DNA of 35,350 nt from a virus, in the IMG/VR virus record IMGVR_UViG_3300042291_000886, positions 1 to 35,350 of that record. One strand, given 5' to 3'. The notes under the pieces are model-generated. The model had not been told where the DNA came from. It was given only the letters and a program-made list of their open reading frames with translations, and did not search any database. How positions within the stretch are numbered: the first letter of the stretch is position 1; each line of letters starts with the position of its first letter. Positions 11,014 through 34,023 of the stretch are shown here, piece by piece. Position numbers and translations under genes: made by a program.

Positions 11014-11098
11014 TGGTCTCCTAAATCTTCTTTACGGACTCGACTAAACAGATAAGCACATCAAGTTTAGTAATATCCAACTATGGATATTTATAGTG

Positions 11099-11104
11099 TA
11101 AATA
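11099..11104 (+). promoter_or_regulatory. Late promoter TAAATA directly before the ALAS start
   Basis: GTGTAAATAAAGTT precedes the ATG at 11110 with five bases between core and start codon, the same spacing as at 14552 and 34308. Predicted transcription start coincides with the A of that ATG. Confidence 0.55.
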
Positions 11105-11109
11105 AAGTT

Positions 11110-13911: not shown

Positions 13912-13945
13912 TAACTAATCCCTTTATAAATTTGCTGTATCATAT

Positions 13946-13974
13946 ATTTTATACAAATTTGTCTTGCTTTGCAA
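13946..13974 (-). promoter_or_regulatory. Sigma70 promoter TTGCAA-17-TAAAAT for clpP operon
   Basis: Minus strand TTGCAA (13974-13969), 17 bases, TAAAAT (13951-13946); predicted start near 13939 gives a leader of about 28 bases with AAGGGA before the clpP ATG. Its -35 box overlaps that of the divergent promoter by one base. Confidence 0.6.
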
Positions 13975-13992
13975 GTAATCTGAGTATATAAT
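13964..13992 (+). promoter_or_regulatory. Sigma70 promoter TTGCTT-17-TATAAT for HNH gene
   Basis: TTGCTT 13964-13969 and TATAAT 13987-13992 with a 17-base spacer. A dyad CTTGC-TTT-GCAAG (13963-13975) covers both divergent -35 boxes, and a palindrome ACAAATTTGT lies just to the left at 13953-13962; either could be an operator. Confidence 0.7.
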
Positions 13993-14004
13993 AGTGAAAC
14001 AACT

Positions 14005-14010
14005 TAAATA
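14005..14010 (+). promoter_or_regulatory. Possible late promoter TAAATA
   Basis: ACTTAAATACTTGAC lies between the early promoter and the HNH start, predicted start near 14016. If used, the HNH gene would be transcribed both early and late. Confidence 0.35.
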
Positions 14011-14044
14011 CTTGACTACGAGAATTTTTGGATTTGAAGATCAA

Positions 14045-14554
14045 ATGAGTACATTATTATTAAACGCAGATATGCAGCCGGTCAGTCTTTTACCATTGAG
14101 TACAGTAGACTGGCAAGAAGCCGTACGATATCTCGTGCTGGACAAAGTTGAGGTACTAGAATGGTACGACGATTGGGTAGTTCACTCTGCTCGATGGAGT
14201 ACTCGTGTGCCCGCTATTGTCATGCTTAGAGAATATCAAAAACCAAAGAGTTCAATTCGCCTAAGCAAACGCAACATTTTCCTAAGAGACGAATACTGTT
14301 GCCAGTATTGTGGAGTTCAAGTGACTGAACAAAATGCAACACTAGATCACGTTCTGCCTGTGAGCAAGGGTGGAAAGACCACTTGGGAAAACTCAGCCAC
14401 TGCCTGCAAGACCTGCAACTATCGCAAGGCCGCAAGTACCAAAATGAAACCAAAACATCTGCCCTACAAGCCGCATTTTTGGGATCTAGTTGAAAAACGC
14501 AAAAAACGTGGGTTCCACCTACAGCATCCTAGCTGGTCCAACTATTTGGGCTAA
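14045..14554 (+). CDS. HNH endonuclease
   Basis: 169 aa from the chosen ATG (MSTLLLNADMQPVSLLP). The C-terminal HNH fold is complete: zinc-binding CCQYC (86 and 89) and CKTC (121 and 124) frame the catalytic stretch LDHVLPVSKGGKTTWEN, with Asp101-His102 and Asn116. The N-terminal 80 residues (LNADMQPVSLLPLSTVDWQE, WSTRVPAIVMLREY) are the usual pre-domain of free-standing phage and bacterial HNH proteins of this type. Possible roles are DNA packaging, nicking or host-DNA cleavage; no intron or homing context is seen. An upstream GTG at 13994 is rejected because it would sit at the transcription start and adds non-family residues. The stop is eight bases before the next ATG, and the next promoter lies between them. 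Confidence 0.88.
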   Translation: MSTLLLNADMQPVSLLPLSTVDWQEAVRYLVLDKVEVLEWYDDWVVHSARWSTRVPAIVMLREYQKPKSSIRLSKRNIFLRDEYCCQYCGVQVTEQNATLDHVLPVSKGGKTTWENSATACKTCNYRKAASTKMKPKHLPYKPHFWDLVEKRKKRGFHLQHPSWSNYLG

Positions 14555-14562: not shown

Positions 14563-16101
14563 ATGAGATTTTTCGAATTGTCTGAAGCCAAACCAAAACC
14601 ACCTATAGCACCCGGTGCTGAACAGCCCGCTGTTGAGCCATCTGTACAACCTGCACCAGAAGCACCTGCAGACCAAACTAAACAACCACATCCTGCGGAC
14701 AAGGTAAAACCAAATTATGCAGACAATAAAAATCTAAAAGCTGCCGCGGCATTTCTACAACAACAACTACCAGATGGTAAGTTTTCTGTGCAAAATGCAG
14801 GCGGTACTAAACAGGTTAGTTCCATTAGAGCTAGAGGCATCTCGCTGGCTGCATTGAAACAGGCAATGACTGCATTTGGAGCTGCTACAGGAGCAACAGA
14901 TACTACACAGTCTACTGCTAGTAGTTCTTTTCCTGCACATAGTTTTGAAAAGGCCGGAGAACTTTATACTGTTGTTATTGGTATGAAGGGTGTTAAAGGT
15001 GACGACGAATCATCTGTTGGGCTTGCTAGGAAAGAACTAACTCCTACAGGGTTAGGCATTGCTGGTGGATTCTTCGACAAGGAAGAATTAATCAACGATA
15101 CTAAGAAAGCTGTAGAATCTAAGATTAGAAAAAGAGATGCTGTGCTAGCTGATGCACTCATTGCCTTAGTAGATAGTGCAGCCGCAGGTGGAAAAAACCC
15201 AATTGCTCCAGAATTGATGGCACACATTTCTCCTTATCTTGGAACAGTAAGTCAAGATTTCGGAGAAATCCTTGCTCCTATTTTGATTCTTGAGCCTGGA
15301 CAGAAAGCAGAATTACCAAAAGGCAATGAACCTCTAGTTGATGTTAAGATTCCGGGAATGAATCTTAGCATTAAGGCACTAACTGGTTCGGGTACTAGTT
15401 TTAGATCCATTTCTAATCTAATGGACAAGTATGAATCTACTATTGCCGACGACAAAGAGTCTAAAAAACACTTTGAAGTATTAAAGGCTTTTCATCCCAG
15501 TGCCGGCGGCAAGAATGTAGACAAGATTATCAAAGCGGCGGCCAAAGCCAATATCAAAGAATACAAAGAAGCTGTTAGGAAGTTTGGCAGCTTTGACGAC
15601 TTTGCTAGTCTATTTAGACGTGCCAGTACGTTCAATTGGCGAGATGGCAGTGTTGAAAGCTATCGTGACTTTTTGAATTTATCATTAGATGTGTTCACAG
15701 CTTCAGACAGTGGCGGAACCAAATTTGTTGGGATGCCGGCAGATGGTAAATTCTATTTAGGTAGCGGAAAGAAAAGTTCTTCTCCTCGAGAAAAGGCAGC
15801 CGGATATGCAAGTTTCCGTGCTAATCCATTTAAAGCTGCTGCTGATATTATTACCTATTCGCTAGGTGTTGGTCTTCTCAATTATGTCAAAGGCGGCAAG
15901 AACGCTGAAAAATACAGAACAATGATGACCGACATTGTAAACAAGGCCGATGCTGTGATTGGACATATCACTGTTAGCAAAGACGGCACAATGAGTTTGG
16001 TTACCAAACCGTTTAGCACATTACAATTCCAATTTCAATATCACGCACCTAGCCACATTCCGGGCAACAACCTTCCAGGATTCATTGCTCTTTTAGATTA
16101 A
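14563..16101 (+). CDS. Large late phage protein with capsid-targeting-like N-terminus; possible nuclease fold
   Basis: 512 aa. The N-terminus MRFFELSEAKPKPPIAPG parallels T4 internal-protein leaders, with LSE followed by A as the candidate prohead-protease site. A Pro/Ala-rich linker follows to about residue 50. In the middle, FGEILAPILILEPG, then LVDVKIPGMNLSIKALTGSG and TSFRSISNLMDKYE have the spacing of an E ... D ... x-x-K restriction-endonuclease-like core (acidic Glu, Asp of DVKIP, Lys of SIKA followed by a Gly/Ser-rich loop). This is a suggestion from pattern only. The C-terminus, FSTLQFQFQYHAPSHIPGNN, is a conserved-looking beta segment. It starts under a leaderless late promoter and has no Shine-Dalgarno. 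Most likely a virion-packaged protein. Confidence 0.72.
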   Translation: MRFFELSEAKPKPPIAPGAEQPAVEPSVQPAPEAPADQTKQPHPADKVKPNYADNKNLKAAAAFLQQQLPDGKFSVQNAGGTKQVSSIRARGISLAALKQAMTAFGAATGATDTTQSTASSSFPAHSFEKAGELYTVVIGMKGVKGDDESSVGLARKELTPTGLGIAGGFFDKEELINDTKKAVESKIRKRDAVLADALIALVDSAAAGGKNPIAPELMAHISPYLGTVSQDFGEILAPILILEPGQKAELPKGNEPLVDVKIPGMNLSIKALTGSGTSFRSISNLMDKYESTIADDKESKKHFEVLKAFHPSAGGKNVDKIIKAAAKANIKEYKEAVRKFGSFDDFASLFRRASTFNWRDGSVESYRDFLNLSLDVFTASDSGGTKFVGMPADGKFYLGSGKKSSSPREKAAGYASFRANPFKAAADIITYSLGVGLLNYVKGGKNAEKYRTMMTDIVNKADAVIGHITVSKDGTMSLVTKPFSTLQFQFQYHAPSHIPGNNLPGFIALLD

Positions 16102-21915: not shown

Positions 21916-22431
21916 ATGATTACAATGAAAGAATGGATGGAATTGGTAGGCTATCGCATTACAGAAGGTAGCGACTATATGTGGCAATGCTACGGTTCCG
22001 ATGCTTATGCACTAGATTCGTGGAACGGGGAGCAAGATGGTCATAGCTTTACTGTGATCTTTGATACCAAGACTCAAGTGGTTTATGAAGTACAGGCTCA
22101 CGACTATGTACATGATCGTGCCTATCGTATGATTAATCCAGACTTTCAAAAAAAGAATCGTAAAGAAGCCAAGAAGAGAGACATTGACAAAGACAATGCC
22201 TGGGACGATGTTGACTATGTTGATTTGGACGTAGACGACGACTTTATTCAAAAGTGTCTAGCTATTCGAGCAGGCGAAGACTACGATACTCGTGTAAGTG
22301 TTCCTATGGAGTTTTCCGATCAAGAACTTCTTATCTATATGAAACTGGCACACGAACAAGATATCACTTTTAATCAATTAGTTGAACGAGCCCTGCGTGA
22401 AGCACTCGAACGAGAAGGAATTACTGTTTAG
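21916..22431 (+). CDS. Phage protein with acidic middle and ribbon-helix-helix-like C-terminus
   Basis: 171 aa. MITMKEWMELVGYRITEGSD and SWNGEQDGHSFTVIFDTKTQ begin a conserved-looking domain. Residues about 95-120 are highly acidic (DDVDYVDLDVDDDFIQ). The last 45 residues, VSVPMEFSDQELLIYMKLA then TFNQLVERALREALEREG, have a strand followed by two helices as in Arc/MetJ-type DNA-binding proteins. A DNA mimic plus RHH regulator is one idea; it is untested. GGAC precedes the ATG. Last gene of the long plus-strand block; its end overlaps the convergent radical-SAM gene by 11 bases. Confidence 0.7.
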   Translation: MITMKEWMELVGYRITEGSDYMWQCYGSDAYALDSWNGEQDGHSFTVIFDTKTQVVYEVQAHDYVHDRAYRMINPDFQKKNRKEAKKRDIDKDNAWDDVDYVDLDVDDDFIQKCLAIRAGEDYDTRVSVPMEFSDQELLIYMKLAHEQDITFNQLVERALREALEREGITV

Positions 22432-23308
22432 TAGCGTGTATGTCAAAGCCGTTGCGACAGGCATCAGCTTTGCAAATTACAGGCACCTGAACTCCTGTAA
22501 ATTCTATTCCTAGTTTTCCAATGAGGCCACCTTGACCACAGTGGCCTCTTTTTATACGGCCCCAAGCATCAATGATCAGTTGTTCAATGCCTGCCTGACA
22601 CGTTTGATTTTGAAACTTATTTTTACCTTCCAAAATTAAAGTTTGAAAATCTGTAAATTCTTCTTCACCATGATCATTAACATAAATCAAATTTTCGTGT
22701 TGGCGTTTTAATTTTATTGTGTGTTCCAGTTTGTATTCCATAGGCTGTTTGTTGATAGCAGGATCTTCAAACAGCATCTTTCTATGAACGGATTGATCCG
22801 GCCACATTTTTTTTATTTTAGTAATAGTATCTTCTAGTTCTTGCCAGCGGTCCGGCAACATACTCACTGTTATACTCACGTTTACATTTTTCTTTTTAGC
22901 GGCATATAAACAAAGCATAAAATGACTGATAGGTGTATGTTCTGAATGCACTTCTAGATTGATGCTATCAACTGTATCCAACAGCCGTTGCCATTCTGCA
23001 ATAGGAATACTGGCATTAGTTCTTATGCATACACTACTGTTTTTTGTTTTGATATGTTTTATTAAATCCACAAGCCATGGCCATTGCGTAACTTCGCCTC
23101 CTGTAAAATAATAACTACAGGTCTTGCCTAGAGTTTTGGCAAAATTATTAACTTGATTAACAAATTCCAAACAGTGTTCTATGTTTGGCAAGTCAATGCT
23201 ACCACTTTTTATAATATCAGGACAGTAACTGCAATTGTAATTGCAGTGATTCATTAACCACCAATCAATATAGAGATATTTGCTATCCCTAGTACTGCGG
23301 AGTTGCAT
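22421..23308 (-). CDS. Radical SAM protein with C-terminal Cys region
   Basis: 295 aa. The radical-SAM cluster motif is HCNYNCSYCP (Cys22, Cys26, Cys29). FTGGEVTQWP (69-77) is the GGE motif binding the SAM amino group. A C-terminal auxiliary region (NQTCQAG, RGHCGQGG, ICKADACRNGFDI) offers four or five more cysteines as in SPASM or twitch domains. SAM radical chemistry on a peptide, sugar or nucleotide is expected. It ends the minus-strand modification island and is the only member here with core and Cys tail in one chain apart from 27349-28206. GGATGG lies before the ATG; it adjoins the YqgE gene with no gap. Confidence 0.9.
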   Translation of the reverse strand: MQLRSTRDSKYLYIDWWLMNHCNYNCSYCPDIIKSGSIDLPNIEHCLEFVNQVNNFAKTLGKTCSYYFTGGEVTQWPWLVDLIKHIKTKNSSVCIRTNASIPIAEWQRLLDTVDSINLEVHSEHTPISHFMLCLYAAKKKNVNVSITVSMLPDRWQELEDTITKIKKMWPDQSVHRKMLFEDPAINKQPMEYKLEHTIKLKRQHENLIYVNDHGEEEFTDFQTLILEGKNKFQNQTCQAGIEQLIIDAWGRIKRGHCGQGGLIGKLGIEFTGVQVPVICKADACRNGFDIHATKQ

Positions 23309-23866
23309 CTAGGCCATCCAACTGTCAGTGGCCTGTTCTCCGCATAGCTGTGTAGAGTCTATCCACATTTCTTTAGTATTAGTTTCTAAAAGCCAAACTG
23401 GGTCAGGTGTTTTTAGCGTTAGCCAACTTTGTTGTCTGCTCCACGGTGGATCGCCTAGCAGTTCGCCTTCAAGTTGTCCCGGTCCCCAACTGCTCTGTCC
23501 AAAGAATATTCTAAAACGCTCTGGGTAATCGTTGTCGGCTAGATGATGAAACATACCAACATTGCTGGTCACCGACCAATCGGCATTGACCCTGTGAGTC
23601 GAGTCCATCTTCCAATTACTGTCGTGTAACATCCAAACTGTGTTAAGTCCTACTGGGCCTCCCCAATAGAGATTAAAATTTTGCGATAGTTCTATGTTTA
23701 TTTCTTTAAGGACGCTGTTTATTGAATGGCTTGTTGGTCGATTCACACAAAGTGCCAACGATCCTTGATTTGTATTACGAGTAACTAATAATACACTTTT
23801 GTCGAATCTCGAATCGCTCATATTAGGAGGAGCTATTAACAGATCTCCTTTTCCGATTCTATGCAT
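23309..23866 (-). CDS. YqgE/AlgH (UPF0301) family protein
   Basis: 185 aa, the usual family length. Diagnostic phrases are GDLLIAPPNMSDSRFDKSV, LALCVNRPTSHSIN, YWGGPVGLNTVWMLH and FFGQSSWGPGQLEGEL, which align with the bacterial G-x-L-L-I-A-x-P, V-N-R-P, GGPV and G-W-x-x-GQLE-x-E-L blocks. Biochemical role in bacteria is poorly defined (AlgH was linked to alginate regulation in Pseudomonas). It sits inside the radical-SAM island, translated from TGGAG within the preceding small gene. A host-derived acquisition is likely. Confidence 0.9.
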   Translation of the reverse strand: MHRIGKGDLLIAPPNMSDSRFDKSVLLVTRNTNQGSLALCVNRPTSHSINSVLKEINIELSQNFNLYWGGPVGLNTVWMLHDSNWKMDSTHRVNADWSVTSNVGMFHHLADNDYPERFRIFFGQSSWGPGQLEGELLGDPPWSRQQSWLTLKTPDPVWLLETNTKEMWIDSTQLCGEQATDSWMA

Positions 23867-23871
23867 CTAGA

Positions 23872-24114
23872 TCAACTCCAGTCTGGAAGTGGGCCGCCAT
23901 ATTTCTTGCCCTTGATTCTTTTGCCTTTTACTGTGGTGCGTTCATTGCCAATCTTGTGTGATTTATTACCGTGTCGACCACGATAGCCCTGACTCTTGCA
24001 GCTAGCCAGTTGACTGGCACCTAAAGCAGCATTTGGCTTGCCTGATGTGCAAAGAGCTCGGCTTGCGGGCTCTTCGTCTAATTCTTTATTTTGGATAACT
24101 TCAAATATTCGCAT
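23872..24114 (-). CDS. Basic 80-aa phage protein with capsid-targeting-like start
   Basis: 80 aa. The start MRIFEVIQNKELDEEPASRA parallels the MRAFEF and MRFFEL leaders in this window and contains LDE as a possible prohead-protease site. The rest is very basic: TSGKPNAALGASQLASC, KSQGYRGRHGNKSHKIG, RTTVKGKRIKGKKYGGPLP. The A-S-C-K-S-Q-G phrase and KKYGGPLP end are, as I recall, conserved in large-phage proteins. It could bind packaged DNA. ATG at 24114 is preferred to TTG at 24117; the TAAATA late promoter ends four bases before this ATG, giving a leaderless transcript. Confidence 0.72.
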   Translation of the reverse strand: MRIFEVIQNKELDEEPASRALCTSGKPNAALGASQLASCKSQGYRGRHGNKSHKIGNERTTVKGKRIKGKKYGGPLPDWS

Positions 24115-24118
24115 CAAG

Positions 24119-24127
24119 TATTTATTA
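24119..24127 (-). promoter_or_regulatory. Late promoter TAATAAATA with leaderless spacing
   Basis: Minus strand CCTAATAAATACTTG runs into the ATG at 24114. T4 geometry puts transcription start at about 24113, within one base of the start codon. Confidence 0.65.
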
Positions 24128-24167
24128 GGAATTAAAAGTTTTGTTCCAAAATAAAAATGGTAGTGTT

Positions 24168-24189
24168 GTACCAGCAGAAATGCTGGTAC
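24168..24189 (-). terminator. Strong hairpin after the double methyltransferase gene
   Basis: GTACCAGCA (24168-24176) and TGCTGGTAC (24181-24189) form a 9-bp perfect stem with a four-base loop, 30 bases after the 24219 stop on the minus strand. A T-rich stretch (ATTTTTATTTT) follows only about ten bases later, so it is a non-classical terminator or a 3' mRNA stabiliser. Confidence 0.5.
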
Positions 24190-24218
24190 TTGAACACATT
24201 ATTAATTGTAAACTGAGA

Positions 24219-25844
24219 TTAAGCAGTTATTTTGCCAATAATAGTATATCTAGTGCCTTTTTCATGTTCCGATTCGTCTTCAAACATTACTTCTACATTT
24301 AGTGGAAGTTGTGTTTTGAATTCATCTAGGGAAGTGACACAATTAGTAAGTCCATCTTTGTTAGATGAATTATTTGATTGGAATACAACGTGTGATCCTG
24401 TTTTGAATCTCTTCCAAGATTCCCATTCATTCATAGGCGGCATGTGTTCGCATATGGTATTAATCGTTAGATCTGCATCTTCGAATCGTTTTGCATTTTT
24501 AGTAATTACGTCAGCATCAATAATTTCTATATTAGAATACTGTTCGAGTACGTTATGTTTTAACGATCTAACTAAAGAATCGTCGCTGTCAAAGCCTGAC
24601 ACTCTTTTTTTGCCTTCAGCTAATGTGGTCATTAGTTCAACCGTATGTTTACATCCAAACACAACTATCTCAGATTTGTCATCCAAGATAGATAGGCCGT
24701 TAATAAATTCCAGCATTTTTGTCTGAGACTGATCTAGTGTTCCGTTTTCTTTTAAATCATTTGCCATATCAATTTCCTTTTTTTTGATTTTTTGTTGTTC
24801 TAACAACTTTTTTTGTTGCCTCAGCTCTTCCTCTAACTTTCGTTTTTGTTGCCGCTTCAGCTCTTCCTCTAACTTAATCTGTCGTCTTGCTTCTATCTCT
24901 GCTTCTTTCTTAAGACGTCTTGCTTCTTCTTCTGCTTCTTTCTTAAGACGTCTTGCTTCTATCTCTTGTAGCTTGATCTGACGTCTTTCTTCTATCTCTA
25001 CTGCTTTTGCCCACCACCTTTTTTCTTCTTCTGCTGCTTTTGCAACACGCCGTTCTATCTCTGCTTCTTTCTTAAGACGTCTTGCTTCTTCTTCTGCTTC
25101 TTTCTTAAGACGTCTTGCTTCTATCTCTGCTGCTTTCTGTAGTTTTGGTAAATCTCTTTCTTGAATAGCCTGGTTTGACCATATCTTGCCTACAAGTGTA
25201 AATCTAGTGCCTCGATCGTCAGTTAATTCTTCTTGATGTAAAACTTCAGCATGTGCTGGCAGTTGTTTTTTAAAATCCTCTATAGTATCAACACAATTAA
25301 TATGTCCCTGAATGCCATACATATTATTAGATTGAAATGCAAAATATGCATCGTCACTTACTTTTGACCAACTAGGCCAATCTTTCATTGCGGGCATATG
25401 TTCGCACGAAGTATTTATGAACAGCTTGGCTGTGCCATAATTTTTTCGAAAGCTGGCAAACGCATCTCCTTCGATCAGTTTAATTTTAGAGTTATCCTTC
25501 CAAAATTTATTCTTTGCAATATGTATCACTTGTTTATCAAGATCAATACCGTAGATACTTTTTACTCTCTTGGCCAATTTAGGTATAATAACGCTACCAT
25601 ACCAACAACCAAATATAACCACTTCAGATTCGCTATCTAAACATTCCATTTGGTCTATTAGATCTACTAACAGTGATTTGGCTGCAAATTGATTTCTACC
25701 AAATGAGTCCTTGATGTCATGTGCTAGCTCTGGATTATCTCTCATAGTAGACAGGATGTTTTTTAGTAAAGACAAGTCTACAGAAGCATTATTCTGTAAA
25801 TGTAAAACATTTCCAACAAACTCTAGGTCTTCAGTATCGATCAT
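24219..25844 (-). CDS. Two methyltransferase-like domains joined by a coiled coil
   Basis: 541 aa. The N-terminal domain (about 30-225) has SAM-fold motif I VVIFGCWYGSVIIPKLAK with acidic IYGIDLD, and a later LFINTSCEHMP. A 125-residue charged coil (EARRLKKEAE repeats, about 232-358) follows. The C-terminal domain (360-541) repeats the same layout: IVVFGCKHTVELMTTLAE, GFDSD, LTINTICEHMP, VVFQSNNSS, then TRYTIIGKI. The two domains are paralogs. Substrate unknown. At residue 360 an ATG with an excellent ribosome site (AAAGGA) begins the second domain, so a 182-aa product may also be made from 24767. It overlaps the carbamoyltransferase gene by 4 bases. Confidence 0.82.
   Translation of the reverse strand: MIDTEDLEFVGNVLHLQNNASVDLSLLKNILSTMRDNPELAHDIKDSFGRNQFAAKSLLVDLIDQMECLDSESEVVIFGCWYGSVIIPKLAKRVKSIYGIDLDKQVIHIAKNKFWKDNSKIKLIEGDAFASFRKNYGTAKLFINTSCEHMPAMKDWPSWSKVSDDAYFAFQSNNMYGIQGHINCVDTIEDFKKQLPAHAEVLHQEELTDDRGTRFTLVGKIWSNQAIQERDLPKLQKAAEIEARRLKKEAEEEARRLKKEAEIERRVAKAAEEEKRWWAKAVEIEERRQIKLQEIEARRLKKEAEEEARRLKKEAEIEARRQIKLEEELKRQQKRKLEEELRQQKKLLEQQKIKKKEIDMANDLKENGTLDQSQTKMLEFINGLSILDDKSEIVVFGCKHTVELMTTLAEGKKRVSGFDSDDSLVRSLKHNVLEQYSNIEIIDADVITKNAKRFEDADLTINTICEHMPPMNEWESWKRFKTGSHVVFQSNNSSNKDGLTNCVTSLDEFKTQLPLNVEVMFEDESEHEKGTRYTIIGKITA
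24765..24780 (-). promoter_or_regulatory. Internal ribosome site and start for C-terminal methyltransferase domain
   Basis: Minus strand AAAGGAAATTGATATG in frame with the 541-aa gene, preceded by an A-run. An independent 182-aa protein (MANDLKENGTLDQSQTK...) would start at 24767, exactly at the domain boundary. Confidence 0.6.
24891..25128. repeat. 76-bp perfect direct repeat in the coiled-coil region
   Basis: Positions 24891-24966 and 25053-25128 are identical, 162 bases apart. Each contains two copies of a 27-base unit spaced 33 bases (24901, 24934; 25063, 25096), encoding an 11-residue EARRLKKEAEE pattern. A copy-number-variable tract is likely. Confidence 0.88.
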
Positions 25845-27352
25845 TTTTTTACTACATAGTCATTTATTACTAACATGTCTAGCCCACATTTTTTAAATGT
25901 ATTTACAGCATGTTCGGGTGTTTCCACAATAGGCTCTTGACAGTTAAAGCTGGTGTTGAGCAGCATTGGAATTCTGGTGACTTTATAAAAGGCATTTATC
26001 AGATTATAATAATTATGATTAAACTCTTTATTAACAGTTTGAATTCTTGCGGTACCGTCTACGTGTGTTACTCCCGGAATCTTATCTGATATCACAGGCA
26101 TGATCCTCGACATAAACGGGCTAGGTTGATTAGTATCAAAGTAGTCTTTGTAATGTTCTTCTAACACACTGGGAGCAAAAGGTCTAAAGTCTTCACGCAT
26201 TTTAATACGACTATTAATAATAGTTTTGATATCTGGGTTTCTAGGATCAGCTAAAATACTTCTATTACCTAATGCTCGATTGCCCGACTCACTTTTACCT
26301 TGAAACCATCCAACAATATCACCGTTGGCAATGGCATCGGCTACCTCAACATAGATTTCGTCCATTGGCTTTTGTTGATAGGTCAATCCCTTAAAAATTT
26401 CAGGGTTGACAGTATACTCTTTTCCTGCATATACATTGGGTATATGAATGTTTTTATTTAGAACATAGTCGGCATGCATATATGTTCCAATTGATTGTCC
26501 CTCATCGCCTGCAGCAGGTGGAACGTGAACATTTACATAATGTTTTGTAAATTCTTCGTTCATATATCCATTATAAGCAACTCCTCCAGCAATGCATAGA
26601 TTATCTGATGTTTTAAGAGGGTATACAAATTTCTTAACAATTTCAATAGTCACATACTGTAGTGTGAATGCTACATTTTCTTTAGGGATCCGTTTTAGAA
26701 TTTCTTTTGCATTACCAGGCAGTCTATGATTGGGAGTTTTCAAATACTCATGAATCATTGTATAGACTTCTTCGTTGTATTCTCCATACCCTACTAGGCC
26801 CATTACTTTGCCTGCATCAAGATATCCAAATCCAAGATCCTGCGCCAGCCTGTTCCACAAGCCGCCTATCGACATTTTTTCAGACAAGTTTGTAATAGTG
26901 CCTTGCTTGTCAACAAAAATACAATTAAATTGCCAGCCCCTACCATCAATTGCTAAAATATCTGATTCAGCGAATCCTGAACTTAGAAATGCATAAGCAG
27001 CATGACTTTGATGATGGTCAATATAATAATATTTTTCAGTGTGCAACTTATCCCATAAGTTAGTTGGGTTAAACGCCAAGAAATCTGTATCCGGCAATGT
27101 AGCTTGCAGTAAGTCTAGTACAAATTCCTGCCCTAGATTAGAAACAGTAAAGGCAAACACATCATCATTGGCTGTGTTAACATAATTGGGTAAGAAGTGT
27201 TCATTAAAGAACTCTCTACTATAGGTAGGATCGTGCGAATTCTTTCGATTGAGATTATGCTTTCTTCTATTATGACGTTCTACTTGATTATGAACTACTC
27301 CGTCATAGGTGTTATGATCGTGAATATTCACTGCAACTGAAAAAATATTCAT
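25841..27352 (-). CDS. Carbamoyltransferase, NodU/CmcH/TobZ family
   Basis: 503 aa. The N-terminal Kae1-like domain carries HDHNTYDG near residue 11 and HHQSHAAYAFLSSGF (113 on), metal- and nucleotide-binding in TobZ. AIDGRGWQFNC and IAGGVAYNGYMN follow. The C-terminal YrdC-like part has GWFQGKSESGNRALGNRS, MREDFRPFAPSVLEE and LLNTSFNCQEPIVETPEHAV. The family makes carbamoyl-AMP from carbamoyl phosphate and ATP and transfers it to a hydroxyl; viral members have been reported to carbamoylate hydroxymethylcytosine in DNA. Whether the acceptor here is a base, sugar or antibiotic-like product is open. It overlaps the radical-SAM gene upstream (ATGA) and the double methyltransferase downstream. 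Confidence 0.93.
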   Translation of the reverse strand: MNIFSVAVNIHDHNTYDGVVHNQVERHNRRKHNLNRKNSHDPTYSREFFNEHFLPNYVNTANDDVFAFTVSNLGQEFVLDLLQATLPDTDFLAFNPTNLWDKLHTEKYYYIDHHQSHAAYAFLSSGFAESDILAIDGRGWQFNCIFVDKQGTITNLSEKMSIGGLWNRLAQDLGFGYLDAGKVMGLVGYGEYNEEVYTMIHEYLKTPNHRLPGNAKEILKRIPKENVAFTLQYVTIEIVKKFVYPLKTSDNLCIAGGVAYNGYMNEEFTKHYVNVHVPPAAGDEGQSIGTYMHADYVLNKNIHIPNVYAGKEYTVNPEIFKGLTYQQKPMDEIYVEVADAIANGDIVGWFQGKSESGNRALGNRSILADPRNPDIKTIINSRIKMREDFRPFAPSVLEEHYKDYFDTNQPSPFMSRIMPVISDKIPGVTHVDGTARIQTVNKEFNHNYYNLINAFYKVTRIPMLLNTSFNCQEPIVETPEHAVNTFKKCGLDMLVINDYVVKK

Positions 27353-28206
27353 TGGTCGGCTACTTGTAATTTTTGCAATTCTTCTTCTTTAAGTATTTCA
27401 ATAATACGATTTCTTTGAGCAGTTGGTCGCTTTGGAATAATATCAAGACATTTCTCACAATACTTTTCAAAGTCAAACAGTTTGTAATTCATCATCTTAT
27501 CAATGTTTTCTTTGGTAACGTCAAACTGTCTTGAACCGTTAATAACCTTTCTGCTACAATGGCGAATTTTTTGTATTTCAAAATCAAACACTGGTACTAG
27601 CGGAAACTTGGCACACACTTTACGATCGAGCTCAGGCGCCTTTACCGGTATATGATCTGTGAAAAAGTCAGGTGATCTAGAATTGTACTCTTTAAATTCA
27701 GTGTTCTTATGTTTGAGATAGGATAGATCGTGCTCGTCTTTGTATTTAAAGTAGCCCGGAGTTTCAATAATCAAATTATAGTTGTTTAAATCGTTGGGTT
27801 CAAAGAACGGAAAGTTGCCTAATTTTTCAATACGGTCTTCGTAAAAATCCAACACCAAATGTTCGATGTAGATAATTTCGGGATCTTCCAATACTTCCGG
27901 ATAAAATTTGCGTATCAGTGAGTTGGACAATACTTGAATTACAAGATTGGGATGTTTCTTTATTTCGGCAATGACTTCTCTGAGATTCTTAACAAGTCCC
28001 GGCTCGCCGCCTAACAGGCAAATGCGTGTCTTATAAGGACTTAATCCATCTAAAATAGTTCTTAGAAAATCCATGTCTACATGGAGATTACGCATTTCCA
28101 GAGTCCAAGCGGTGCAGTAATGACAGGACTTGTTACATGACTTTGTCATATAAAAGTCAACTGTACGATATTCTGATCCTTTTAGGTCAGCTAGTGTCTT
28201 GATCAT
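27349..28206 (-). CDS. Radical SAM protein
   Basis: 285 aa. Cluster motif KSCNKSCHYC (Cys24, Cys28, Cys31), GGEPG at 66-70, and a C-terminal set of cysteines (RKVCAKF, RHCSRKV, YCEKCLD) suggesting an auxiliary Fe-S site. Its short spacing between motif and GGE fits the core SAM barrel. AGGA lies before the ATG. It is translated just ahead of the carbamoyltransferase, so a product may be hydroxylated, rearranged or crosslinked before carbamoylation; this is an inference from order. Confidence 0.9.
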   Translation of the reverse strand: MIKTLADLKGSEYRTVDFYMTKSCNKSCHYCTAWTLEMRNLHVDMDFLRTILDGLSPYKTRICLLGGEPGLVKNLREVIAEIKKHPNLVIQVLSNSLIRKFYPEVLEDPEIIYIEHLVLDFYEDRIEKLGNFPFFEPNDLNNYNLIIETPGYFKYKDEHDLSYLKHKNTEFKEYNSRSPDFFTDHIPVKAPELDRKVCAKFPLVPVFDFEIQKIRHCSRKVINGSRQFDVTKENIDKMMNYKLFDFEKYCEKCLDIIPKRPTAQRNRIIEILKEEELQKLQVADQ

Positions 28207-28236
28207 TTCTTATCCTGAATGTTTCTTAATTAATAC

Positions 28237-28911
28237 TTATTTGACAAAGTTTACAATGCGGTTATAATCTGGCCTAAGATCTAGTTTCTCTAGTGCAGTA
28301 TACTCGTCCCGAAGATATTCTAGTGCTTTGCCAACTGTCATAATGAAAACTGGTTTTTGCTCTAAGAATTCAAATCCGGGTTCCTGCCAATGTTCTATAG
28401 TTTTAGGAAGGCATAGTGTATAAGATACATCCAATTGAGATTCTATACACAGTGCGGCAAATGTATTACAAAACATTCCAATTTCCAAAAGTGCATTGCT
28501 GTAGTGTTCCCCTAATTTATTAGGATCTGTTTGTGTATAATTTCTTCCGAGAGCAATTAGCTCTTGTTGGTGTGCATTTGGTTGATCTTCGACACGTTGC
28601 GTGAAGATCAACAAGTAATGGCAAGATACTATGTTATGAAATCTTGGCATTTTAGGAGAAGGAACAGTAAGATGGTCTTGATCATCTTGATGCTTTAACG
28701 CCTTTTCGTATGCTTTATCTTTTAAATCTTGGTGTTGTGGGCCTAATACGTGTAATTTGTATGGCATGAAATTATTTTTTGACGGAGTTACTTTCCAGGT
28801 TCGTTGCAGTAAATCGTCTATAACCGATTGTGGAACATCCCGACTTCGGTCGTACGTTTTTACATATTTGTAATGTTTTAAAACGTTGTCTATCATGTTA
28901 TTCTGTTCCAC
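28237..28911 (-). CDS. Nitroreductase-like flavoprotein
   Basis: 224 aa. RSRDVPQSVIDDLLQRTW then KVTPSKNNFMPYKLHVLG fits the nitroreductase N-terminal FMN pattern (R-S-R, then T/A-P-S-x-x-N-x-x-P-Y). LLEIGMFCNTFAALC is the dimer helix and CLPKTIEHWQEPGFEFLEQ a conserved late segment. FMN-dependent NAD(P)H oxidoreduction is the family activity; the substrate is unknown. It is a paralog of the C-terminal two-thirds of the next upstream gene, overlapping it by 14 bases, suggesting a heterodimer. Confidence 0.78.
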   Translation of the reverse strand: MEQNNMIDNVLKHYKYVKTYDRSRDVPQSVIDDLLQRTWKVTPSKNNFMPYKLHVLGPQHQDLKDKAYEKALKHQDDQDHLTVPSPKMPRFHNIVSCHYLLIFTQRVEDQPNAHQQELIALGRNYTQTDPNKLGEHYSNALLEIGMFCNTFAALCIESQLDVSYTLCLPKTIEHWQEPGFEFLEQKPVFIMTVGKALEYLRDEYTALEKLDLRPDYNRIVNFVK

Positions 28912-30061
28912 TTATAAATTTTACAATTCTTTCAAAGTCGGGTCTGTAGTCCATTCCGTGTGTTAAATCTGGGTAAAAATCTCTACGATATTCTTTTCCA
29001 AATCCAGCTGATAGGATCAATTGAGGTGGATTTTCTAAAAAACTAAATTCCGGTTCGGTCCAAAAGTCCATAGTGGTTGGCAAACATCTGGTATGAGAAA
29101 CATCAATATTGTGTTTTAAACACAAGTTTGAAAATGCTTGCGTAAACATACCAATTTCTATCATGGCTAGTCCTTGTGCGCGATTTTTTCTTTTGGGATC
29201 TGTTTGCCATTCTCTAGTTGTCTGCTCAAAATTAAAACCTTTAGACTGCTGTAGTTTATTAAAAGGATTTACTTGATCTTCTACTCTCTGCGTACAAATT
29301 AGTATATAAGGAGCAGTTTTATAATTTAGGTACTGAGGCGGTGACCGATGACTCAAGAAGGCCTTTTCAACTGCCACGGGATCTTTTACATCAACATCCC
29401 ATTTTGGAAAATTAGTTTCGTATTCTCTAACCAACGCTTTATAATAAATCATTTCTTTAATTTTTGTATCACCGGGTCCTAGCACAAATATGTTGTAAGG
29501 CATGAATTGTTGTTTGGATGGAGTACTGGACCACGCTTCGTATAACGATTGCTTTATTATAAAAGGATCCGGCAACTTTTCAGTGTCGTATTTCATTACA
29601 TACTGATATTTGTGCATATGACTGTAATTCATATACTTGGGTCCGGTTTTTATAGTTTCGATTAAAATAGATTTTAAATTAACCAGTTCATCTGCTGTTA
29701 CCTGCCGATTCTGTGGAGTTAATAGAAGATCAAACGCCAGCCCGAAAGTCTGTACTTGACCAATTGTTTGACTATCTCGATCGACTAGCATACGCTCCAT
29801 CATATAATTGTGTACGGCTATCTCCGTTTCGTAGTTTTGTATTTGTCGTTTATTGTCGAACCAATATTTAGATGCTATATAGGTGATATTTCTTGTGGTT
29901 TCAAAAGTCAAATCATCTATGTAGGCATCAAAAACAAAATTTAGATCTCTAGTGCATTTGGCAAGACTTCGTGATTTTGGAATTCGATGATTAATTTTCT
30001 GCCAACTTATAGTTTCTTTTATAATTAGTGATTTATTGTTTTTTAATGTTTGAATGTTCAT
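28898..30061 (-). CDS. Nitroreductase-like protein with extra phage-type N-terminal domain
   Basis: 387 aa. Residues about 155-387 are a nitroreductase-like domain homologous to the downstream protein: SSTPSKQQFMPYNIFVLG, ICTQRVEDQVN, MIEIGMFTQAFSNLCLKH, CLPTTMDFWTEPEFSFLE, MDYRPDFERIVKF. The first 150 residues are different; SLAKCTRDLNFVFDAYIDDL then TFETTRNITYIASKYW resembles a repeated motif I recall from large virion proteins of T4-like cyanophages (C-x-R-D-x-x-x-x-x-D-A-x-x-x-D-L). A fusion of a phage docking domain to a flavoprotein is therefore possible. AAAGGAA precedes the ATG. Confidence 0.78.
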   Translation of the reverse strand: MNIQTLKNNKSLIIKETISWQKINHRIPKSRSLAKCTRDLNFVFDAYIDDLTFETTRNITYIASKYWFDNKRQIQNYETEIAVHNYMMERMLVDRDSQTIGQVQTFGLAFDLLLTPQNRQVTADELVNLKSILIETIKTGPKYMNYSHMHKYQYVMKYDTEKLPDPFIIKQSLYEAWSSTPSKQQFMPYNIFVLGPGDTKIKEMIYYKALVREYETNFPKWDVDVKDPVAVEKAFLSHRSPPQYLNYKTAPYILICTQRVEDQVNPFNKLQQSKGFNFEQTTREWQTDPKRKNRAQGLAMIEIGMFTQAFSNLCLKHNIDVSHTRCLPTTMDFWTEPEFSFLENPPQLILSAGFGKEYRRDFYPDLTHGMDYRPDFERIVKFISGTE

Positions 30062-30070
30062 ATTATTCCT

Positions 30071-30397
30071 TTAGAAATGTATTCTTAGATCCGTATTTTC
30101 TATATGTTTATTAGTAATCTTGCCACTACAATGATGCCAACAGGCTTTAGGAGCATGCAGAGGCTCGTTTTTTAGTGTCATCATAAATTTATTCCAATAC
30201 TCACCTTCGATGATAGTGGCTGGATCAGCGTGATTATTTATGTTTAAGCTGGGGTCAAAAAAACCTTCTACAAGGGGATCTGCTTTACGAGCATCTTCGG
30301 CATCAAACCAGCAGCATGGAGTAAAATATCCTGCAGCATTTAGGCATATTTCTTCTCGAGTATTGAGACACTTTGGAACAAGCTCTCTATCATTCAT
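30071..30397 (-). CDS. Stand-alone SPASM-like Cys protein
   Basis: 108 aa from ATG 30397. Six cysteines sit at 10, 18, 28, 29, 86 and 90 (VPKCLNTREEICLNAAG, TPCCWFD, KACWHHC). The phrase CLN ... G-Y-x-x-P-C-C-W matches the SPASM/twitch C-terminal segment of radical-SAM enzymes, but no SAM motif is present, so it is probably the detached auxiliary domain of the upstream radical-SAM gene, with which it overlaps by 8 bases. An in-frame ATG at 30415 is rejected: GGAGG lies 7 bases before 30397, and a TATAAATA promoter lies just upstream. It should bind one or two Fe-S clusters. Confidence 0.75.
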   Translation of the reverse strand: MNDRELVPKCLNTREEICLNAAGYFTPCCWFDAEDARKADPLVEGFFDPSLNINNHADPATIIEGEYWNKFMMTLKNEPLHAPKACWHHCSGKITNKHIENTDLRIHF

Positions 30398-31013
30398 CGT
30401 AAGTCCTCCAATCATATTTTTTATTTATAGGAGCAAAACCGTCTGGTAATCCTCTTGCACTAAGTTTAAAATAAATTTTTATACCTTTAGATTGTGCCAA
30501 TTCTCTACATCGTTCAACATCATTCTCATTATAGCTGAAAACAAGATATTGCCAGTGCGCATCTATTCCTAATTCTTTAGCTAGGCACATCATATTAAAC
30601 AAATGTACACCATCTTGATTTATTCTATATAAATGACTTAGTTCGGGAGGGCCATCAATACCAAAGCTCCAACGTGCATCAGTATTTGCAAGAAATGCTT
30701 CGCGCCACCATGTTTCTGGTTTATGCGAAGCAGCGGTATGTACTTCTGTAGGTACATTGCTATCCTTACAGACTTTTAACATTTCTATAAAGTGTTGTCC
30801 AAATATAGGATCAGAATGTTGACCACAGAAATTTATACTATTAAAATATTTCAAACATTTTTTTAATTGATCGGGCGTAATGTCGCTTCCGGGTAAGGGC
30901 ACATTCTGCCCGTACTTAATTTTAAACTTGGTGCGTTTACAACAAGCACACTGCAAGGTGCATCTTGGACTATTTTCGATGTTTAAACTCTTATGTCTAA
31001 AACTTACACTCAT
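30390..31013 (-). CDS. Radical SAM core protein lacking its own SPASM domain
   Basis: 207 aa, short. Cluster motif PRCTLQCACCKR (Cys18, Cys22, Cys25). INFCGQHSDPIFGQHFIEML is the strand carrying the usual GGE equivalent (here GQHSDP), and SFGIDGPPELSHLYRI and HWQYLVFSYNENDVER complete the barrel. It is a paralog of 32092-32838, sharing FCGQ-S-DPI and WQY-F-YNE blocks. No Cys-rich tail is present; the adjacent 30071-30397 gene supplies one. Target unknown. Confidence 0.88.
   Translation of the reverse strand: MSVSFRHKSLNIENSPRCTLQCACCKRTKFKIKYGQNVPLPGSDITPDQLKKCLKYFNSINFCGQHSDPIFGQHFIEMLKVCKDSNVPTEVHTAASHKPETWWREAFLANTDARWSFGIDGPPELSHLYRINQDGVHLFNMMCLAKELGIDAHWQYLVFSYNENDVERCRELAQSKGIKIYFKLSARGLPDGFAPINKKYDWRTYDE
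30422..30429 (-). promoter_or_regulatory. Perfect late promoter TATAAATA inside the radical-SAM gene end
   Basis: Minus strand CCTATAAATAAAAAAT; predicted start near 30416, leader of 19 bases with GGAGG before the SPASM-like start at 30397. It gives the downstream half of the island separate late expression. As it lies within coding sequence, chance occurrence is possible. Confidence 0.5.
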
Positions 31014-31021
31014 ATTACACT

Positions 31022-32095
31022 CTAAAATTGTTTTTTAACTGTATTGATTATTGTGGATATCTCGTCATCAGTCAGCCATGCATGAATGGGCAAAGAAATT
31101 ATTGTGTCAGCTACTAATTTTGAATTTACACAATTATCTTTTCTATATTGGTGTGTGTTGTACATGCCATTTTCAGACAAGGGTTTTTCGTAATGCACAC
31201 TGGCTTTCAAGGCATCTTTTACACGCTTTCTAACATCTTTATTTTGAAATCTAATGGTATATTTATGGTAGTTATGGGACAGCCCTTCTTGACCCTGCTG
31301 TGTAAAAACTGGCAAATCTTTAAACGCTTGATTGTACTGTTGCGCAATTTGTTGACGTCTTGCTTGATTCCTTTCGGCATTTTGCAGTCGAAGATTAATA
31401 ACTTCAGCGTTAAGCACATACATACGACTGTTAAATCCCAGCATCTCAAAATCTTTATCTTTGCCGTGACGCCTAATCTTTTTGACCAACTTTGCTTTGG
31501 ATTCGTCATCGGTTAGGAAAACACCTCCGCCATTAATCCCCGAAATCACTTTGTTGCTGTTAAAGCTGTAGACACTACAGTCGCCGATGGTGCCTGCTCG
31601 AACATTGTTTAGACTTGCTCCCAAGGCCTGAGCAGCATCTTCAAAAAACACTAGGCCTTTTTCTTTACAAAACTCTCGAATCTCAGTGGTATCTGTCATA
31701 TTACCAAAAAGGTGTACATATACAATTGCCTTGGTCTTTTCGGAATACATTCGTTTGATGCTGTCCAGATTCATGTGATAGCTGTCTAGATCTATTTCAC
31801 AGAACACAGGTGTAGCACCCACATGACTCACACAGGCAGCTGAAGTAATCCAACTGAAGTCTGTCACAAGTACCTCGTCACCTGCACCAATGCCATATGC
31901 CAATAGTGCAAAGTGCAGTGCATCGGTGGCACTGGCCACACTGACTGCATACTTGCGACCTACCCGTTTGGCAAAACTTTCTTCCCAGGCTTCGTTGTTT
32001 TCGTAGTTGAGTTGCGACATAAATCTGTCGAACAGGTCTAGATATGCCTGTTTGTTTTCTTGGTACTCTCGGTCCCAGCCGTCATATGATGTCAT
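31022..32095 (-). CDS. DegT/DnrJ/EryC1/StrS aminotransferase
   Basis: 357 aa, standard length. PLP Lys182 in SFNSNKVISGINGGG, the FEDAAQALGAS motif (151-161), and VSVASATDALHFAL and YVHLFGNMTDT blocks are diagnostic. Family enzymes aminate keto-sugars (nucleotide-linked) for O-antigen, capsule or antibiotic sugars. Here no sugar dehydratase or epimerase is adjacent. It lies between two radical-SAM paralogs, so the substrate may be a carbonyl created by one of them. Overlaps 32092-32838 by ATGA. Confidence 0.93.
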   Translation of the reverse strand: MTSYDGWDREYQENKQAYLDLFDRFMSQLNYENNEAWEESFAKRVGRKYAVSVASATDALHFALLAYGIGAGDEVLVTDFSWITSAACVSHVGATPVFCEIDLDSYHMNLDSIKRMYSEKTKAIVYVHLFGNMTDTTEIREFCKEKGLVFFEDAAQALGASLNNVRAGTIGDCSVYSFNSNKVISGINGGGVFLTDDESKAKLVKKIRRHGKDKDFEMLGFNSRMYVLNAEVINLRLQNAERNQARRQQIAQQYNQAFKDLPVFTQQGQEGLSHNYHKYTIRFQNKDVRKRVKDALKASVHYEKPLSENGMYNTHQYRKDNCVNSKLVADTIISLPIHAWLTDDEISTIINTVKKQF

Positions 32096-32838
32096 AGTGA
32101 TTCCAATTTTTTATGTGATATCTTGCGCCAAAGATCAAGGCTTTTGGATTTATAGCCCCAGTACTCTTTTTTAACTCTTTCTTCAGTGTGTTTCTTATCG
32201 GGACTGGTCAAGGTAAAATCCACACTTTTTCTCAGCAGGGGATTGTCTGATCTGAATCCTCTGTTGGTGTTTATTAACAGTAGACTAAAATCTTCTTGTT
32301 TGGCAATTTCTATAGCACGATCTATTTCGTGTTCATTGTAGCCAAAAATAATGTATTGCCACACTATGACATGTCCAAGATCTCTACCCTGCTGCATACG
32401 CTTCCAAACGTCTTCAAAGTTTGAACCCACACGATACAATTCACTCTTTTTGTCAATGCCGTCTACACCAAAGTACCAGGCGTTTTCGCCCACACCATAG
32501 CTGTAGGCTTCGTCCCACCAGGCATCACTTTTGCCACTGCCCACTGTGGCAATCCTAATGGCCTTGCCCTGTCCGTCGCACATTTTCAACAGCTTGAGAA
32601 AGTTGGGATGATAGATAGGGTCAGATATTTGTCCGCAGAAGGTGATACCATTGTCATAGTAATCCAGTATCTTTTTAAAATTGTGTTCTTCCAGATCAAA
32701 GGATCTACGTATCTGCTCTTGGCTGGAAGTTTTTTGACGTATGCACTGGGGACACTTGAACACGCACCTGTGTGACGTATCTATGTTAGGTCGCACAAAT
32801 CGTTGATACTTGACATAATCATCAGTTATTCTTGCCAT
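32092..32838 (-). CDS. Radical SAM core protein lacking its own SPASM domain
   Basis: 248 aa. Cluster motif HRCVFKCPQC (Cys25, Cys29, Cys32); ITFCGQISDPIYHPNFLKLL and WYFGVDGIDKKSELYRV plus VWQYIIFGYNEHEIDRA match the 30390-31013 paralog. The C-terminal 50 residues are basic and lack the Cys set. It is preceded by its SPASM-like partner (32822-33172), which overlaps by 17 bases, and followed by the aminotransferase with an ATGA overlap. Confidence 0.9.
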   Translation of the reverse strand: MARITDDYVKYQRFVRPNIDTSHRCVFKCPQCIRQKTSSQEQIRRSFDLEEHNFKKILDYYDNGITFCGQISDPIYHPNFLKLLKMCDGQGKAIRIATVGSGKSDAWWDEAYSYGVGENAWYFGVDGIDKKSELYRVGSNFEDVWKRMQQGRDLGHVIVWQYIIFGYNEHEIDRAIEIAKQEDFSLLLINTNRGFRSDNPLLRKSVDFTLTSPDKKHTEERVKKEYWGYKSKSLDLWRKISHKKLESL

Positions 32839-33172
32839 TGGCCTGCTCCTTTACTTCAATTCGTTCCTCGTCTCTAACTGCGTTTTTATCTATGTCTACC
32901 CCGCACTTCTTTTTGCACATATATGAAGCATTTTCAGGATCCGTTAGCAGTGTCTGAAAAAAGTTTTCCCACTGATCAGATGCAAAAATATCTTCCAATC
33001 TGTCATTACGAGATAACAGTAGTTCCTCATCTTTTAGGCCGCACTGTTTGACATAGCGATAGACCGGGGGATCGTCCAGCCAGCAACAGGGCAGCATGTA
33101 TCCGTCTGATGTGTATGCAGCCCCTTTGTTATCTGTGGATCTATAGTTGAGGCATTTGGGTTTTATTTTCAT
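32822..33172 (-). CDS. Stand-alone SPASM-like Cys protein
   Basis: 116 aa. Cysteines 7, 29, 30, 44, 86 and 90 (PKCLNYRS, LPCCWLDD, KQCGLK, YMCKKKC). The CLN ... G-Y-x-L-P-C-C-W-x-D and C-x-x-x-C pattern matches the 30071-30397 protein, and TSDGYMLPCCW matches SPASM segments of radical-SAM enzymes. Six Cys could hold one or two 4Fe-4S clusters. Overlaps the downstream core radical-SAM gene by 17 bases and the upstream putative glycosyltransferase by 4. Confidence 0.75.
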   Translation of the reverse strand: MKIKPKCLNYRSTDNKGAAYTSDGYMLPCCWLDDPPVYRYVKQCGLKDEELLLSRNDRLEDIFASDQWENFFQTLLTDPENASYMCKKKCGVDIDKNAVRDEERIEVKEQANGKNN

Positions 33173-34023
33173 TGTAATTGCTCTAGGGCAGCCAGTATTG
33201 GTGCTGCATCGGGTTCTGCTATATCACGTGTGTAGTACACACTACCCCCGTCATGTATGGCAGGGTCTCTTAGGTAAATCAAGCCCTTGTTGAAATATTT
33301 ACATTCTTGCACAATTCTAGGGGCTGGGTCAAATGTTTCTTTCACATACACATAGGTATCAAAGATACCCAGAAGGTTTTCTACGGGTGCAAATATGTTG
33401 TTGTAGTTGATGTTAACATATTTTTCACGATAGGTCAATATGCCATGGTCAGGGTACTGATCAAGAAACTTTTCTGCTGTGGCATAGTATTGCTCATTAG
33501 AGCCCTGGAATAGATATCGAAATTGAACACTGTCCGTGTGGGGTTTGTACAGTGCAAAATTGATGCGCTTTTCAAAATGCAGCCCCTGACCCTCAGGGTA
33601 GACTTCTCGATCACATAGATCCACTACCTGCTGGGGCCTGTAAAACGCCAGGGCCTGTGGGTAGAGTTCAGGGTGGTTTTCAGAATACACACTGATCACC
33701 CTTGAGCCAAATACTGATCGCAGGGTCTCCTGCTGGGTGCTGTTATAGTCTTTGAAGGCCTGCCAGCTGAGTGTGATCATGCTGCGACCCATAACCAGGG
33801 TGACATCATTGGGATTGGGCTGATACTGATCAAACACCACGTGTTCAAATAGGGTATACTTGTTGGTAATTGCAGTGCGATAGCTAGAGGGAGTGTAGCG
33901 GCGATGGCTGACAATGATCAACCTAGCTGATATACCCAAACTATTCAAGAGACAGCAGTATTCGTAGCTGTAGTATAACAAGCCGTCAATGGGTTTGCTG
34001 GTGCATATGATGTTAACAGTCAT
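33169..34023 (-). CDS. Putative glycosyltransferase (GT-B-like)
   Basis: 284 aa. The N-terminus MTVNIICTSKPIDGLLYYSY then ARLIIVSHRRYTPSSYRTA looks like a GT-B nucleotide-fold domain, and the C-terminal KETFDPAPRIVQECKYFNKG resembles the F-x-P-x-x-R-x-x-x-E-x-x-x-x-x-K donor-binding helix of GT-B enzymes of phages. A donor and acceptor cannot be assigned; glycosylation of DNA bases or of a surface sugar is possible. First gene of the island; a TTAAATAC late promoter with leaderless spacing precedes its ATG. Confidence 0.65.
   Translation of the reverse strand: MTVNIICTSKPIDGLLYYSYEYCCLLNSLGISARLIIVSHRRYTPSSYRTAITNKYTLFEHVVFDQYQPNPNDVTLVMGRSMITLSWQAFKDYNSTQQETLRSVFGSRVISVYSENHPELYPQALAFYRPQQVVDLCDREVYPEGQGLHFEKRINFALYKPHTDSVQFRYLFQGSNEQYYATAEKFLDQYPDHGILTYREKYVNINYNNIFAPVENLLGIFDTYVYVKETFDPAPRIVQECKYFNKGLIYLRDPAIHDGGSVYYTRDIAEPDAAPILAALEQLQ

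Follow-up and report, generated by a model that had tools for sequence, protein, structure and literature searches.

A conserved cassette of enzyme genes lies on the minus strand of a 35,350-base stretch of viral DNA, the IMG/VR virus record IMGVR_UViG_3300042291_000886, the whole of which is referred to here as the window. The cassette is real, conserved and apparently undescribed, combining known enzyme families with an unusual splitting of radical S-adenosylmethionine (radical-SAM) enzymes into separate proteins, and we put at about an even chance the proposal that it makes for the phage a sugar (or aminocyclitol-like) residue of an unusual kind, which it then transfers, most likely to a glycan of the virion (tail) or of the host surface. 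An earlier note on this DNA, made from the sequence alone, had listed a minus-strand run (34023-22421) of a putative glycosyltransferase, radical-SAM proteins with SPASM-like partners and a variety of tailoring enzymes, and had supposed an undescribed phage pathway acting on DNA bases, a surface glycan or a peptide. All the open reading frames (ORFs) that it listed are present and intact, the enzymes that it named are confirmed as to family, and the gene overlaps are as it gave them, that at 30390/30397 relying on an internal ATG within the ORF at 30071-30415. The idea of an undescribed pathway is supported by a neighbourhood conserved across many phages and by a search of the open-access literature that found no paper describing the cassette; of the three suggested targets a sugar or glycan is favoured, whereas DNA bases and peptides are disfavoured.

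The gene-neighbourhood search that had been proposed in the earlier note showed the set to be conserved. At least 270 IMG/VR stretches encode a relative of the most conserved marker of the cassette, a full-length radical-SAM protein of 285 residues termed here rSAM3 (27349-28206), and removal of near-copies left 27 non-redundant loci with adequate flanks, 25 of which hold a glycosyltransferase (GT), a DegT aminotransferase, a radical-SAM protein, a carbamoyltransferase and a methyltransferase together. Taken family by family, all 27 loci have DegT, carbamoyltransferase and methyltransferase, 25 have the GT, 24 a radical-SAM core and a detached twitch (an auxiliary iron-sulphur protein considered below) and 22 a nitroreductase; it is the radical-SAM/twitch pairs and the nitroreductases that vary among cassettes. 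The genes are on one strand and their junctions usually overlap, with median gaps of -1 for rSAM3/carbamoyltransferase, -14 for twitch/core and -5 for core/twitch. When the search was seeded with the radical-SAM core all five core families were found in 37 of 66 long loci and when it was seeded with the nitroreductase in 19 of 44, the latter figure indicating that the nitroreductases are bound to the cassette more loosely than any other family. Within the window the GC content is 36.7% over 24219-32095 and 43.0% over 1-22420, a compositional island whose drop in GC fits horizontal acquisition.

Of 50,697 phage records just one, that of the cultured SAR11 phage Pelagibacter phage Mosig EXVC030M (MT647606), contains a protein related to the GT or to rSAM3, and no close DNA relative of the window was found among phage records; the 57,338-base IMG/VR record IMGVR_UViG_3300044630_003005 (loci L070, L086 and L165) is 100% identical to the window over at least 17,999 bases. 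Among 84,980 genomes scanned there were three marine metagenome-assembled contigs with the cassette and one weak unrelated match, and no clearly cellular copy was found. The three contigs had been binned as Pelagibacter (L245), Rhodobiaceae (L246) and Gammaproteobacteria (L247); two of them (L246 and L247) adjoin phage tail-type genes and the third is only 7.6 kb long and consists entirely of cassette. A cellular origin was accordingly considered and rejected, the contigs being read as mis-binned phage, in two cases from the adjoining tail-type genes. Gp23-type capsid genes were detected in 8 of 20 records searched, Mosig included, at two distinct score levels (two of the 20, L194 and L211, had been retrieved by nitroreductase alone), and the cassette therefore occurs in T4-like phages, probably of at least two groups. 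It would seem to be carried by hundreds of ocean phages and to be spreading among them horizontally.

The central enzyme, rSAM3, matches the radical-SAM family (PF04055, 1.9e-7) and retains the CxxxCxxC motif of the SAM cluster, which is invariant in its relatives and also in the two radical-SAM core proteins described below (59/59). The pattern C198-x18-C217-x32-C250-x2-C253 is likewise invariant in rSAM3 relatives, and these four cysteines are predicted to be the ligands of a one-cluster, twitch-type auxiliary site, their number matching that of the cysteine ligands in the auxiliary cluster of BtrN, an enzyme that oxidises 2-deoxy-scyllo-inosamine to a ketone (PMC9012708). The AlphaFold model of rSAM3 (pLDDT 86.7) has BtrN (Z 14.1), BlsE (13.7) and SuiB (13.3) as its best fold matches, which are tied by the rule of the tool used, with SpeY, AbmM and DesII scoring lower. 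Upstream in the run is a DegT/DnrJ/EryC1/StrS pyridoxal phosphate (PLP)-dependent aminotransferase (31022-32095; PF01041, 1.2e-87), in which the PLP-binding lysine K182 is invariant (55/55) and which is closest to scyllo-inositol and sugar transaminases, the nearest solved chain being named glutamine--scyllo-inositol transaminase (1.3e-60). The NodU/TobZ-family O-carbamoyltransferase (25841-27352; Carbam_trans_C, PF16861, 4.7e-66) is closest to GdmN (7.7e-54) and TobZ (4.6e-44), and its metal site HHxxH (H113/H114/H117) and the motifs RExFRPFAP (R386-P394) and NTSFN (N466-N470) are kept in at least 49 of 50 relatives.

The first gene of the cassette encodes a protein of 284 residues (33169-34023) in which the glycosyltransferase postulated earlier is borne out by a confident GT-B fold prediction, although none of 45 relatives matches a Pfam glycosyltransferase family. 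The model (AlphaFold pLDDT 95.3) has the two Rossmann-like domains of that fold and matches PimA (Foldseek 1.5e-5; Z 15.4 over 253 residues), and D232-x7-E240, invariant in 48/48 sequences, is a motif that we take to resemble the E-x7-E motif of GT4 enzymes. Its orthologue in Mosig is Mosig_00083 (11563-12429 of locus L003), which bears the GenBank label of a molybdenum cofactor enzyme. The methyltransferase (24219-25844, 541 residues; PF13649, 4e-8) does contain two copies of one domain (residues 1-221 and 359-540), as had been noticed earlier; most relatives have one copy, and a gene at 12350-14152 of locus L063 encodes three in tandem. The two nitroreductase-like flavoproteins, of 387 residues with a 140-residue N-terminal extension (28898-30061) and of 224 residues (28237-28911), are indeed paralogs, 37% identical to each other; the shorter matches PF00881 weakly (6.6e-4), while 17 of 35 relatives match this family with a best value of 3.7e-12. 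A protein search of phage records with the longer one found no relative. Taken together, a BtrN-like rSAM3, DegT, a GdmN/TobZ-like carbamoyltransferase and a GT-B enzyme are the composition expected of the tailoring of a sugar or cyclitol followed by its transfer.

The most unusual feature of the cassette is that two of its radical-SAM enzymes appear to be divided between genes. Core protein 1 (32092-32838, 248 residues; PF04055, 4.5e-7) is preceded by a detached iron-sulphur protein of 116 residues (32822-33172), and core protein 2 (30390-31013, 207 residues) is followed by another of 114 residues (30071-30415, with an internal ATG at 30397), which is 28% identical to the first (E 5e-10). Four radical-SAM proteins had been counted in the run, and this stands: those at 22421, 27349 and 32092 match Pfam, and core 2, which has no Pfam match, has a radical-SAM match in PHROG (phrog_21308, 1.8e-7), the CxxxCxxC motif and 32% identity to core 1. 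rSAM3 carries an auxiliary domain on its own polypeptide, whereas cores 1 and 2 do not. The description of the detached proteins as SPASM-like holds for the family, PF13186 being matched by 23 of 45 relatives (best 3.2e-6), but not for a full SPASM domain. Five cysteines (C7, C29, C30, C86 and C90) are invariant in 60/60 of these proteins, the second in the window sharing those of the first, and since five are enough for one auxiliary cluster the proteins look like putative one-cluster domains of the twitch type, a twitch being a truncated SPASM with a single cluster (PMC9012708). A two-cluster SPASM was considered as well and the cysteine pattern gives it no support.

In a tree of 88 non-redundant core domains the twitch gene lies upstream of the core in 36, downstream in 32, is fused to it in 10 and was not called in 10, so that core and twitch are split in 68 of 88 rows; cores 1 and 2 of the window belong to two different old subfamilies, the first almost entirely twitch-upstream and the second mostly twitch-downstream. 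As judged from this tree the split is old, and dN/dS values of 0.056 for twitch 1 and 0.047 for core 1, measured against locus L006, indicate that the separate genes are under strong purifying selection. The splitting of SPASM from core had been singled out as unusual, and its age, together with a search of the open-access literature that found no paper on standalone SPASM or twitch proteins, supports that assessment. A frameshift artefact is ruled out by the 5' position of twitch 1, by the conservation of both genes in many contigs and by the dN/dS of about 0.05, for a twitch lying 5' of its core is the reverse of the domain order in fused enzymes and could not arise by a frameshift in a core-twitch gene. 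Natural fusions among the relatives are of the types radical SAM-twitch, GT-twitch, twitch-GT and GT-methyltransferase; the first shows that core and twitch belong together, and we infer that each core and its detached twitch form one enzyme, while the fusions of GT and twitch, found in either order, connect the radical chemistry with the transfer of a glycosyl group. Some of the fusions could be plain read-through of neighbouring genes.

A pathway of the following kind can be proposed from these families and folds. The radical-SAM enzymes with a twitch-type auxiliary cluster, some of them acting as two subunits with the auxiliary-cluster domain as a separate protein, would oxidise or rearrange a carbon of a sugar or cyclitol and the DegT enzyme would then aminate the resulting keto group; redox tailoring of a variable kind may fall to the nitroreductase-like flavoproteins, a carbamoyl group would come from the carbamoyltransferase and a methyl group from the methyltransferase, and the GT-B glycosyltransferase would join the finished residue to its acceptor, most likely a glycan of the virion (tail) or of the host surface. 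The cassette of Mosig, like that of several relatives, has additional GT-like genes around it and tail-fibre or baseplate genes next to it, a setting which suggests that the acceptor belongs to the virion or a surface. A fuller version of the proposal, possible but on the whole doubtful, is that marine T4-like phages possess an undescribed pathway for a carbamoylated, methylated amino sugar, without a clearly cellular copy and run in part by obligate two-subunit radical-SAM enzymes whose separate twitch may be shared with, or docked on, the GT. Several observations weigh against a sugar pathway ending on the virion or a surface: an NDP-sugar dehydratase, epimerase or nucleotidyltransferase is missing from the conserved core, the 57-kb relative of the window showed no recognisable tail gene beside its cassette, the peptide enzymes SuiB and anSME are nearly as close to the fold of rSAM3 as the sugar enzymes are, and the GT-B matches of the GT include a DNA enzyme, T4 alpha-glucosyltransferase.

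The strongest alternative on precedent is that the cassette hypermodifies the bases of phage DNA, placing a glycosyl, amino or carbamoyl group on a hydroxymethylated base in order to evade restriction. A phage-encoded enzyme of the same NodU/TobZ family, identified by MetaGPA, carbamoylates 5-hydroxymethylcytosine (5hmC), and the TobZ positions W408, G421 and R423 distinguish the DNA-modifying members from the rest of the family (PMC8670742). At these positions the tested 5hmC enzyme has I, C and T, but the cassette family has W, G and R in 49-50 of 50 sequences (W349, G362 and R364 in the window, equated by alignment and by identical spacing of 13 and 15 residues); moreover the window enzyme is only 25% identical to the 5hmC enzyme and, unlike it, has no hydroxymethylase neighbour. 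The GT-B fold is also that of the T4 alpha- and beta-glucosyltransferases, and one cassette-bearing contig has two genes of the thymidylate-synthase family. That family (PF00303) was not found, however, in the complete Mosig genome nor in 17 of 18 cassette-bearing records searched, C5-methylase (PF00145) was found in none of those searched, and Tet/JBP (PF12851) was also found in none, but this last search matched no control genome either and is weak. DNA modification is therefore disfavoured and we judge it distinctly improbable, bearing in mind that the records are contig fragments and that the route might be an unfamiliar one. The two thymidylate-synthase-family genes just mentioned, on contig G009 (that of locus L074; also L241 and L242), lie at 68023-68934 and 27318-27857; one is divergent and may encode a nucleotide hydroxymethylase.

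It has also to be asked whether a protein or peptide is itself the substrate, undergoing radical oxidation, methylation and carbamoylation; a tail-fibre side chain and a ribosomally synthesised and post-translationally modified peptide (RiPP) would be examples. Peptides are the substrates of many SPASM/twitch enzymes, rSAM3 is close in fold to SuiB and anSME, and the cassette often adjoins tail-fibre genes and genes resembling Asp/Arg hydroxylases, but DegT, NodU-type carbamoyltransferases and GT-B enzymes are generally known to act mostly on sugars or small molecules. Across 81 loci there is no small ORF (of at least 50 residues) that recurs inside the cassette, and hence no conserved precursor gene, and the overlapping junctions leave scant room for one, which speaks against a RiPP; overall we regard direct protein or peptide modification as unlikely. 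A soluble product, such as an aminoglycoside-like compound or nucleotide analogue directed against competing phages or host defence, would explain why the gene content resembles that of natural-product clusters, with its relatives of BtrN/BtrS, BlsE, GdmN and TobZ, but no recurring transporter or self-resistance gene was seen in the cassette and a lytic phage would presumably gain little from a secreted product, so that we consider it very improbable. That the genes are unrelated cargo of a variable island with no single pathway is scarcely credible: the radical-SAM/twitch pairs and nitroreductases do vary in copy number and a nitroreductase relative often has no core beside it (14 of 44 long loci), but for the core itself this is contradicted by the five families in 25 of 27 loci, on the same strand, overlapping and repeatedly fused.

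The sugar-tailoring proposal can be set against several known systems. Mosig has an orthologous cassette in genes 82-94, of which 82-90 form one run comprising nitroreductase, GT, radical SAM, detached twitch, DegT, rSAM3, carbamoyltransferase and methyltransferase, with identities to the window of 51% for the GT, 54% for DegT, 53% for rSAM3, 58% for the carbamoyltransferase and 50% for the methyltransferase; it differs in having a single radical-SAM/twitch pair, where the window has two, and in carrying three additional GT-like genes and a gene resembling SGNH hydrolases. The butirosin pathway resembles the cassette in its twitch radical-SAM fold, four-cysteine auxiliary cluster and DegT-family aminotransferase, but BtrN is only about 15% identical to rSAM3 over the aligned structure, no 2-deoxy-scyllo-inosose synthase was found among the cassette proteins scanned, and in the window the auxiliary domain is detached in two of four radical-SAM enzymes. 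The T4-related Campylobacter phages CP220 and CPt10 carry several radical-SAM genes and genes resembling nucleotide-diphospho-sugar transferases in a variable module, and such islands have been known since 2010 as interchangeable, with no function assigned (PMC2853527). Their radical-SAM protein is 28% identical to core 1 of the window, but they have an amidinotransferase in place of DegT, carbamoyltransferase and nitroreductase, and no detached twitch was called beside the CP220 copies in the core tree. The Nol-like carbamoyltransferases of marine cyanophages belong to the same PHROG family as the window enzyme (phrog_1601) with 30-40% identity, but lack a GT or rSAM3 of the window type alongside; in HTVC008M a phrog_1601 carbamoyltransferase also lies amid glycan-type genes.

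If the proposal is correct, ocean phages carry, in hundreds of genomes though in only one deposited phage record, an assembly line resembling those for natural products, and its product is a chemical group that has so far been met with on no virus. In the split enzymes the large radical-SAM superfamily would have members that occur naturally as two proteins, and the long-debated role of the auxiliary cluster could be tested by supplying or omitting the partner protein. Since Mosig is in culture, the product itself is directly testable.

The island had been taken to extend from 34023 to 22421, which is too long at its 3' end. YqgE/AlgH (23309-23866; DUF179/YqgE, PF02622, 2.5e-31), a small basic ORF of 81 residues (23872-24117, known only as an ORF) and radical-SAM protein 4 (22421-23308; PF04055, 2.7e-7) are outside the conserved core. 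Among the rSAM3-centred loci the first two have no relatives other than in the same virus, whereas relatives of the third occur in the cassettes of three other contigs (L026, L028 and L030), and it is best regarded as an optional accessory.

Elsewhere the window encodes a homologue of 5-aminolevulinate synthase (ALAS) on the plus strand (11083-12312; best solved relative ALAS, 2e-132), in line with the phage tetrapyrrole genes described as a class in PMC11480375. On the minus strand are a fatty-acid desaturase-like protein (4482-5186; PF00487, 2.1e-12), a desaturase-like gene also adjoining the Mosig cassette, a protein with a GLEYA/PA14 lectin-like domain (8813-9760; 2.2e-21) that is possibly a glycan-binding tail protein, and a ClpP-like serine protease (13327-13911; phrog_94 head maturation protease, 3e-52). 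The products of 835-1935, 14563-16101 and the small basic ORF at 23872-24117 have a similar MRxFE-type N-terminus, which could be a targeting signal common to T4-like virion proteins.

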